48,285 nt of DNA, taken from Halioglobus sp. GTDB taxonomy: Bacteria; Pseudomonadota; Gammaproteobacteria; Pseudomonadales; Halieaceae. The stretch's first letter is position 1. Every line of letters begins with the position of its first letter. Shown here piece by piece: positions 1-25,038 of this stretch. The notes beneath the pieces were generated by a model, which had not been told where the DNA came from, ran no database searches, and worked only from the letters and a program-made list of their open reading frames with translations. The DNA lies in NCBI GenBank assembly GCA_020443325.1, contig JAGRIK010000319.1:1-48285 (forward strand), read 5' to 3'. The translations under genes and the position numbers were made by a program.

Positions 1-152
1 CGAATCACGTGGAGCGACTGAAACGCCTACTGGGGTGCGAGCCCGTGGGCCACGACCAAACCCCCGGCAGCCCTACGAAAAATTCATCTCGTTGCAATCC
101 AAGGCGAAAACAAGCCGAGATGTCAGGTGAAGCTTTTCCAAAACGCTGTTAG
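1..152 (+). repeat. Structured interspersed repeat, copy A (left stem outside window)
   Basis: The first 20 bases match the loop of the hairpins at 24537-24611 (minus strand) and 24710-24784 (plus strand). Bases 21-44 are identical to the right stem arm of copy B. The rest (45-152) aligns with the body of copy B at roughly three-quarters identity by eye, and its last bases (CGCTGTTAG) match the end of copy C at 24890. The matching left arm should lie just before base 1. The TAA stop of the DUF1653 gene (complement of 149-151) falls inside the conserved end. What is seen is the repeat and its boundaries; its function is unknown. Confidence 0.75.
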
Positions 153-23391: not shown

Positions 23392-24387
23392 CTAGGGCGC
23401 CGTCGATGTTGCACCACTGATCGCGATCGGAACACCGAACGAGGGCTGCAGGAGTCGGGCGGGCAGGACTAACTGCTGTAACTCCAGGGCGCTGGTCTTG
23501 TCGAAGGATGGCAGTATCCTGCTCTGCTCCACGCTGCCGAATTCACCCAACAGATCATCGTGGTGAATAATCACCACCTCCCCTGCCTGCACCGCAACCA
23601 CGGTTTCATCAATGTATTCAGAGACGTAGTCCGAATCGAGACTGATGAACCCGCCCGTGCCGAGAAACACAACATCGGCCTCGACACCCTCCAGGGCACC
23701 AGGCACAAACCCCGCACTACCCACCACCAGCATCGAGCCCTCAGGGTGGCTGATGTGTATCGTGTAACTCCCTCCCTCCTTCCAGGAGGTATAGGGCGCC
23801 GGCAACTCGAAGGGTGCCGCAACCTCGCCCTCGATAGCCGAATTGCTTGCCAGCGGCGCATGCCTGGACTCGTAGAAGGTGATGTCAAACAATCCGTAGG
23901 AGTAGGTTTTCCCCGGCTCGATCTCCACAATGCGGGATTCGTCGAACGCTGAGCTGCGCGCAATATTGGCCGTGGAGCGAGAGCCCAGCACATCCCCGCC
24001 GGCGAGCCGTGCGAAGTCGGCGGTATCCATGGCGTGATCATAATGCGAATGCACCGTCATGATAGCCGCCAGGCGATCGATCCCATGCGCCTGTATGGCC
24101 TCCGCAACCGCGCTGGTATCCGTGACAATGGGCCGCCTGAACAGCAAATCCGACAGTGACGGGCGAGACACAAAACCGTCCGTCATAACCTGTGTCTCAC
24201 CATCGTCGATAAGCAGCGTGGCCACACCTAACCATGTCACGGTCAGCGCTGAGTCCTCAGGCGCGGGTTCTGCATAGGGGATACCCACCTCGCTCATCTC
24301 CGGCCTCGTCAGTACCCACAGTGCGGCAAGGCAACAAATCGCCACCAGGAATTGCACAGTCCGTTTGAAAACGCTTTTTGCTGTCAT
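23392..24387 (-). CDS. Membrane-anchored metallo-beta-lactamase-fold hydrolase
   Basis: A 331-residue protein with an N-terminal membrane segment or uncleaved signal (residues 8-27) and a metallo-beta-lactamase domain. The metal motif is H113-x-H115-x-D117-H118 (HSHYDH). A later GFISLDSDYV segment and a His pair near IIHHDD fit the remaining ligands. WLGVATLLIDDGETQVMTDGF resembles the UlaG/lactonase-type branch. The substrate is not deducible. ATG 24387 begins the membrane segment; the frame extending to 24462 runs into repeat copy B and is not taken as coding. The 5' end therefore lies about 40 bases downstream of the repeat. Confidence 0.85.
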   Translation of the reverse strand: MTAKSVFKRTVQFLVAICCLAALWVLTRPEMSEVGIPYAEPAPEDSALTVTWLGVATLLIDDGETQVMTDGFVSRPSLSDLLFRRPIVTDTSAVAEAIQAHGIDRLAAIMTVHSHYDHAMDTADFARLAGGDVLGSRSTANIARSSAFDESRIVEIEPGKTYSYGLFDITFYESRHAPLASNSAIEGEVAAPFELPAPYTSWKEGGSYTIHISHPEGSMLVVGSAGFVPGALEGVEADVVFLGTGGFISLDSDYVSEYIDETVVAVQAGEVVIIHHDDLLGEFGSVEQSRILPSFDKTSALELQQLVLPARLLQPSFGVPIAISGATSTAP

Positions 24388-24429
24388 AGGTATTCGCGGT
24401 CTGTTACGGGCTTGCGTTGAGAATAGCAG

Positions 24430-24611
24430 CTCGCGGCTTGTGGAAAAACCTTCAGGTGGCATCTGGGCTTGTTTTCGCCTTGATTAGCAAACGGATGAAT
24501 TATTTCGTAGCCTGTCGGGGGGCTGTCGTGGGCGACGGGCTCGCACCCCAGTAGGCGTTTCAGTCGCTCCACGTGATTCGCTTTGTGAAACGCCTACTGG
24601 GGTACGAGCCC
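24430..24611 (-). repeat. Structured interspersed repeat, copy B with hairpin
   Basis: Read on the minus strand, the element opens with a hairpin: left arm 24611-24588, 27-base loop 24587-24561, right arm 24560-24537. The 24-bp stem has one non-Watson-Crick position, which is a U-G wobble in a minus-strand transcript but an A-C mismatch in a plus-strand one. The loop contains AAGCGAATCACGTGGAGCGA, nearly identical to that of copy C. The right arm is identical to bases 21-44 of copy A, and the body downstream is similar to copy A. Total length is about 182 bases; the distal boundary near 24430 is less sharp than in copies A and C. Confidence 0.78.
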
Positions 24612-24709
24612 TGCATCCCAATGCTACGGCACGAGAAGCGATGGACGTTAGATTCTGAGAAGCATGAATGGAACGTCTTTTTCTGATCTAGTCGAATCGT
24701 ATGCACTGA

Positions 24710-24890
24710 GGTTGCGGATAGAAATGTGTTTCTCACCAAGCGAATTACGTGGAGCGACTGAGAAACACATTTCTATCCGCAACCGCCCTACAAAGCCACT
24801 TCCCCGAAAGCGGAAATACCCCGGTTTCCATCCCGGTTAGTTTTCCCCCCGGTCTGGCGCTCGTTATAGACATTTTCAACACGCTGTTAG
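24710..24890 (+). repeat. Structured interspersed repeat, copy C with perfect 25-bp hairpin
   Basis: Left arm 24710-24734 and right arm 24760-24784 are perfectly complementary over 25 bases and enclose a 25-base loop. The loop contains AAGCGAATTACGTGGAGCGA, matching copies A and B, but the stem sequence is unrelated to theirs. The body keeps a short shared GCCCTAC motif and ends in AACACGCTGTTAG like copy A. Length is 181 bases, the same as copy B. Conserved loop and ends with a differing but still self-complementary stem indicate selection on, or a copying mechanism producing, the fold itself. Confidence 0.8.
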
Positions 24891-25038
24891 TGGGCAAAGG
24901 GTGAAATTACGCTATGCGGTACATTTGCAATATTTGGTTCACGCAGCCAGACTGCGGAAATACTGTATGCCACTGTATAGTCAGGTACCGTCGTAACTGT
25001 GCTATCAACCAGAACTCCAGCGCTCCGCGAGGAATCAA

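Follow-up and report, generated by a model that had tools for sequence, protein, structure and literature searches.

The DNA analysed here, below called the window, is a stretch of 48,285 bp that forms contig C257 of a Halioglobus sp. assembly of 4.7 Mb in 365 contigs (the host assembly, G000). Near its middle, two long hairpins carry a common loop motif on different stems. The locus raises the question of what kind of element keeps its loop and lets its stem change, and what might read such a structure.

A double hairpin within a MITE-like unit

The segment at 24430..24890 is a MITE-like unit of 461 bp bearing a double hairpin. Both of its ends match the repeat CTAGCAGCGTGTTGAAAAA, and the same ends are found on other copies in G000. 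The left terminal inverted repeat (24430..24448, plus strand) is decayed and matches the query repeat at 15 of 19 positions, and the right one (24872..24890, minus strand) matches at 17 of 19. Between them lie a type-1 hairpin (copy B, 24537..24611), with its motif on the minus strand, and a type-2 hairpin (copy C, 24710..24784), with its motif on the plus strand, each recognized by hairpin search, DNA-fold z-score and arm comparison. The arms of copy B (24537-24562 and 24586-24611) form a stem of 26 bp with one mismatch around a 23-nt loop, and those of copy C (24710-24735 and 24759-24784) form a perfect stem of 26 bp, also around a 23-nt loop. A 20-mer search places the loop motif AAGCGAATCACGTGGAGCGA of copy B at 24564..24583 on the minus strand and the motif AAGCGAATTACGTGGAGCGA of copy C at 24738..24757 on the plus strand. 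The 20-mer matched in 0 of 100 shuffles, and the DNA-fold z-scores of the window hairpins run from -9.1 to -12.9. Read on the motif strand, the 5' arms of B and C have 12 of 26 letters in common, five of these within the last eight preceding the loop. The spacer separating the two hairpins (24612..24709) is the most variable portion of the unit across copies.

The paired hairpins described in an earlier note on this DNA are therefore real, but copies B and C, which it took for copies of a repeat, together make up a single inverted doublet, each being one half; no direct repeat was found. A third copy is the half of a second unit (1..152, plus strand), truncated by the contig start, which consists of the loop end and 3' arm of a type-1 hairpin and ends in a terminal repeat at 134-152. 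The complete unit, an old copy, sits between divergent genes, one for a protein with the metallo-beta-lactamase fold and the other for a HAD hydrolase. As the note had also stated, no transposase, integrase or reverse transcriptase is nearby: a Pfam search of the nine window proteins neighbouring the unit gave no match to any of these.

Confinement of the loop motif to the three sites in the window, which would have told against the reading in the note, is not what was found. The 20-mer has 108 matches in G000 at up to three mismatches, against 0 for a reversed control pattern, and among the matches listed (100 of the 108) all are exact. Seventy-two regions around the listed matches were retrieved for reading. 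Most loops come in inverted pairs separated by about 174 bp, as a rule a type 1 with a type 2, and many G000 contigs terminate inside a hairpin. In 10 of 35 recognized pairs, one partner has a long loop, in which 17 nt containing CCGG..CCGG stand in place of TG.

The terminal repeat was present at all 11 MITE-type G000 loci checked and has 70 matches in the genome at up to three mismatches. Searched with up to four mismatches, it was absent from the older G000 loci L119, L122, L127 and L130, and from the loci checked elsewhere (5 in G016, 4 in G001, 16 in G030, 13 in G085 and 10 in G326). Loop and stem are retained in the copies without it, and the terminal inverted repeats expected of a MITE belong only to the MITE-type units of G000. 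In this genome, the doublet has been amplified within the MITE-like unit, which carries most copies. We take the unit and its putative transposase to be IS5-like, and that transposase probably spread most of the G000 copies. The CTAG at the unit ends could be a target-site duplication. In G000 contig C293 (6215-6305), two terminal repeats start 72 bp apart, perhaps marking a hairpin-less unit. Locus L070 (G000 contig C266) is a unit from which the type-1 hairpin has been lost; by eye, the edges of the deletion show short matches of CCGT. A single decayed loop was observed at L054.

Stem covariation, strand rule and loop dialects

We gathered 172 hairpin sequences by way of their loops; some sites or near-identical copies are included more than once. 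For covariation, 42 hairpins were aligned without gaps, chosen so that their 5' arms agree at fewer than 18 of 22 letters. Changes occur on both sides at all 22 pairs, with double changes in 418 of 924 cells, and 98.7% of cells are paired, as compared with 38-45% for control structures slid along the same alignment. The constancy of the loop in this alignment, among the listed exact matches and in the set of 18 units described below is partly or wholly by construction, but the freedom of the stem is not. Stems have a median length of 26 bp (range 10-31). Their foot is mostly A|GG..CC|G, and GTAG occurs there in many G030 hairpins only.

Mismatched pairs distinguish the two strands. Across 22 fixed pairs, the 146 of 172 hairpins whose arms are full and whose pairs are at least 70% Watson-Crick contain, when read on the motif strand, 3072 Watson-Crick pairs, 100 G.T, 3 A.C and 37 others. 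The excess of G.T over A.C holds when distinct contexts are counted (59 vs 3), when identical hairpins are counted once (81 vs 3 in 116), outside G000 (36 vs 3, over 20 pairs in 64 hairpins), and by type (72 vs 2 for type 1 and other hairpins, 28 vs 1 for type 2). It is weaker without the pairing threshold, at 94 vs 14 in 121 hairpins. At previously unused sites (26 hairpins) the counts are 65 vs 2, or 23 vs 2 in distinct contexts. The G326 sites among these give 47 vs 0 from 11 near-identical hairpins (contexts 9 vs 0), and the G085 sites, from a genome with other sites in the first set, give 18 vs 2 (contexts 14 vs 2). Where the motif strand has G.T, its complement has A.C, and the constrained fold must therefore be that of the motif strand. 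One particular strand of each hairpin acts as the fold, and paired hairpins use opposite strands.

Covariation and strand rule together lend strong support to the idea in the earlier note of a kept loop on a stem conserved in structure and free in sequence, acting as a folded strand. Its observation on the odd pair of copy B (24544/24604) is also borne out, as this is C.A on the plus strand and G.T on the minus. The strand hint that it drew from this wobble grows into the general motif-strand rule, but does not point to a minus-strand RNA specifically, because the hairpins bear the motif on opposite strands. Since stems vary yet stay self-complementary, with the tip kept, something seems to read the folded strand.

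The loops occur in dialects, whose letters are common to the two partners of a doublet. At the second of the central loop letters, partners agree in 12 of 12 pairs from the genus (9 A, 3 T), and the dialect AT is found in both partners in all five G085 pairs and all eight G030 pairs. A mini-hairpin within the loop was considered; the exchange of C and A at its foot, together with further variants of the loop, gives it poor support. In L144 and L146 (G030) and L168 (G159), the loop form is lengthened by CCCGGCC-type inserts after GAGCG.

Distribution and persistence at chromosomal sites

In a collection of 84,980 species genomes, exact loops were found in 17 stretches, from Halioglobus, gammaproteobacterial and proteobacterial MAGs, Lysobacter, Luteimonas, Thermomonas and two Pandoraea. 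Occurrence is patchy: a relaxed loop (at most one mismatch) is found in 11 of 140 family genomes, with 60 matches in G030, 45 in G085, 13 in G016 and 6 each in G001 and G084, and a match in G028 that has no visible stem. Within the genus, the family is present in 3 of 18 genomes. Inverted doublets of type 1 and type 2 were found in several genera, and the stretches that align between loci are mostly 220-370 bp long. At L087 (6850-6979), the order of the two motifs is reversed, with plus before minus and a distance of 110 bp.

A loose loop pattern matches in 8 of 369 class genomes, with hairpins in G000 and G326; the matches in the other six look by eye like chance. Seventeen of these matches are in G326, which also gave the single match of a backwards control. 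Twelve places in G326 were examined, 10 from the matches listed and two from the covariance-model search below; 11 of them bear long hairpins with a second dialect, AAGCGAGTTATCGCAGATTGTCCGAGCGA, little altered, and the twelfth is stemless. The G326 copies are mostly single hairpins, not doublets; two genes that separate distant ones encode an OTCase and a protein carrying the dihydroorotate-dehydrogenase-B iron-sulphur domain. A covariance-model search, in which 14 candidates per genome were scored, matched in at least 2 of 369 class genomes. Carriage by phages or plasmids was rejected: viral contigs gave no exact loop match, plasmids gave no loop match, and among phages just two had matches, of 26-27 bases. 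The loop sequences were not found in the literature searched, and the titles and abstract openings returned by topic searches described nothing resembling the family.

For a comparison of spacer with stems, ten units from older or rearranged loci were removed from 28 complete G000 units, leaving 18. The minor-letter fraction in these 18 is 0.088 in the spacer vs 0.026-0.054 in the stems, and over all 28 it is 0.185 vs 0.10-0.11. Nearest-neighbour spacer distance averages 0.088, from which about 28 loop changes are expected on terminal branches, in units chosen with both loops recognized. A fairer measure is the partner loop, which was recognized at 35 of 37 judgeable sites, against about a fifth predicted from the spacer rate. 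The two interior sites without a partner are L044 and L070, and 37 further unpaired loops lie at contig ends, where they are not judgeable. At sites common to G000 and G016 and at sites common to G001 and G016, stems have changed and pairing has been kept through compensatory changes. Site E has one hairpin in G001 and two in G016. Site C (L123, 6126-6206, in G000; L151, 13043-13127, in G016) is a single hairpin at the same intergenic site in both genomes, differing in stem and in loop orientation. Intact loops and stems beside diverged spacers, together with the compensatory changes, speak more for a host function at each site than for a purely selfish element.

The gap between rplQ and uvrA holds the doublet in some genomes and lacks it in others. 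It measures 571 bp in G000 and 582 bp in G016, with two loops each; in 12 other congeners it measures 63-220 bp, with one of 990 bp, and holds no loop (14 of 17 rplQ-bearing congeners were measured). By eye, the rplQ terminator stem precedes the extra DNA in G000 and G016, and the element is likewise separated from its gene by an intrinsic terminator at sites E and F. The sites are mostly behind genes: on a rough map based on ORFs of at least 100 aa, 31 of 73 are convergent, 32 codirectional and 8 divergent, and two were not judged. Of 18 neighbour proteins scanned, 17 belong to ordinary chromosomal families or have no match, and one is a DUF2846 protein; they include L17, RpoA, UvrA, aconitase, OTCase, ZapD and RNase D. 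One G030 doublet (L143) has a spacer of just 28 bp, which leaves little room for two outward promoters. A promoter scan found 0 where 0.3 are expected by chance, too low an expectation for the result to be informative.

Candidate readers, rival explanations and known systems

The earlier note proposed a search for a tyrosine or HUH recombinase gene in every carrier, and a Y1/HUH transposase was not found in all of them. The Y1 transposase model PF01797 matches in 10 of 18 genomes and in 10 of 15 of a second set (where G085 recurs as G535), with no separation of carriers from non-carriers; it was not found in the heavy carriers G016 and G030, in the carrier G034, or in G084, G145, G159, G528 and G532. 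The loop was not found within about 1.5 kb of any of 24 Y1 loci (all PF01797 matches; L273 repeats L272), some of which show only partial loop matches with letters changed. A RAYT/Y1 partner was rejected on both counts. In L279, from a Luteimonas padinae genome, two 26-bp hairpins with GTAG feet (near 1336 and 1981) flank a Y1 transposase gene. Their loops are 20-22 nt long and differ in sequence from the present motif, and this is a RAYT-linked repeat with long stems and a similar build. In L270, from the genome of L087, a near-perfect palindrome of 38 pairs near 2211 adjoins a Y1 transposase gene.

The integron integrase model TIGR02249 scores above cut-off in 7 of 14 genomes. Four of these are G000, G001, G016 and G159, the last with one relaxed-loop match; the other three (G003, G011, G013) lack the loop motif. 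It was not above cut-off in the carriers G030, G085, G326, G084 and G145, and this enzyme too was rejected as a partner that does not track carriers. The integrases of G000 (contig C75, 1195-2127) and the six other genomes score well above the family cut-off. A search of ten loci and of window positions 24300-25000 against Rfam 15 gave no match at gathering score and only sub-threshold ones, mostly to microRNA precursors, and a known RNA family was rejected for these stretches. It is unlikely that the 20-mer as a whole targets a conserved rRNA or tRNA, because 47 of 57 genomes have no match at up to three mismatches on either strand.

We read the family, with a probability of roughly 0.45, as a REPIN-like and probably mobile doublet, each hairpin of which would be read as a folded single strand by a putative trans-acting factor. 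The doublet would probably be a non-autonomous mobile element. Its hairpin would fold from the strand bearing AAGCGAATNNCGTGGAGCGA and be recognized through its loop and its A|GG..CC|G foot, and one such factor would need a stem of about 26 bp and not a particular stem sequence. With the two hairpins facing opposite ways, an insertion should expose exactly one active hairpin on whichever strand is read. The folded strand would be DNA and not RNA, the factor may be a single-stranded DNA nuclease, a transposase or a binding protein, and the doublet itself would presumably move. Against this reading, no enzyme was found, as neither Y1 transposases nor integron integrases track the carriers, and the intact resident copies are a serious argument for a host function. 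More tentatively, the family might represent a new class of DNA elements read through their structure by a loop-reading enzyme of their own, neither HUH-Y1 nor integron integrase. The loop would then be an address, in dialects that change jointly in both hairpins, and the stem a free self-complementary scaffold.

The tolerance of G.T on one strand is also what selection on RNA predicts, and compensatory change in place with loops intact, as well as the location mostly behind genes, suits a structured RNA. Read-through transcripts from either side would form the active distal hairpin, whose loop would bind a protein or RNA and stop, cleave or stabilize the transcript, making the doublet a two-way insulator behind genes. 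This is possible, though less likely than the reading above. At some sites (E, F and rplQ, by eye) a terminator intervenes between gene and element, the usual minus-then-plus order puts the antisense motif in the hairpin nearest the 3' end of the gene, the window copy lies between divergent genes, and no stretch searched matches Rfam at cut-off. We prefer the reading as folded single-stranded DNA because of the one 28-bp spacer and the several sites behind terminators. Some REPs and BIMEs have been proposed as chromosome-architecture sites. Here, an abundant DNA-binding protein might hold intergenic cruciforms or single-stranded hairpins, with which the intact loops of resident copies, the intergenic position and the many G000 copies agree; presence in 3 of 18 genus genomes is hard to reconcile with such a role, a symmetric cruciform would not predict the strand rule, and we judge this unlikely.

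That the palindromes are mere passengers of a MITE moved by its terminal repeats may be true of the recent expansion in G000, where those repeats stand at every MITE-type locus checked and recur across the genome. As the whole story it fails because of the copies without such ends, which still keep loop and stem, and we consider it improbable. An attC-like site used by an integron integrase is more improbable by far. In attC sites, structure is kept, sequence is free and one folded strand is active, and the comparison drawn in the earlier note stands as logic. The integrase is indeed above cut-off in three carriers and in G159, but its presence in motif-less genomes, its failure to reach cut-off in G030, G085, G326, G084 and G145, and scanned neighbours that are housekeeping genes and not cassettes speak against membership.

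The family differs from known doublets in its division of labour, in which the loop is kept and the long stem is free; it also obeys a clear strand rule, and its resident copies are intact. REP-type palindromes are usually attributed to RAYT transposases; unlike in that account, the carriers here include genomes in which RAYT was not found. Covarying hairpins and loop dialects offer a direct route to finding and testing the reading factor, and the family is a test case for repeats as parasites versus useful sites.

Among known systems, attC shares the single folded strand and the variable stem sequence, but its conserved parts are boxes at the stem end, where here the loop is kept, and we saw no array and no integrase link. 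The G000 units carry terminal inverted repeats like MITEs, but in the other genomes checked the hairpins occur without them. The TIR families of TIRYT tyrosine transposases (Di Nocera 2013) are longer, partly self-complementary, often dimers, and flank their Y1 gene (PMC3733652), unlike the present loop motif, which is near none of the 24 Y1 loci. REP stems are given there as 5-13 bp for GTAG and 8-9 bp for CGTC repeats, the latter with loops of 4-5 nt (PMC3733652). With a median stem of 26 bp and a loop of at least 23 nt, the present hairpins fall outside the CGTC class. They depart from GTAG REP/REPIN elements in their stems of about 26 bp, in having no constant GTAG tag (GTAG feet being restricted to many G030 hairpins), in keeping a loop of at least 23 nt, and in the lack of any RAYT linkage found for the loop-motif family. 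We do not file these doublets as REP/REPIN because the stem, tag and transposase features fail. The closest published relatives are nonetheless REP/REPIN elements. These are described as extragenic palindromes with inverted doublets, compensatory changes and uneven spread among genomes (PMC3116915, PMC3733652), and TnpAREP as acting on folded single-stranded DNA (PMC8266576, PMC6006769). The present family resembles them in its intergenic inverted doublets, its many copies and its compensatory changes.
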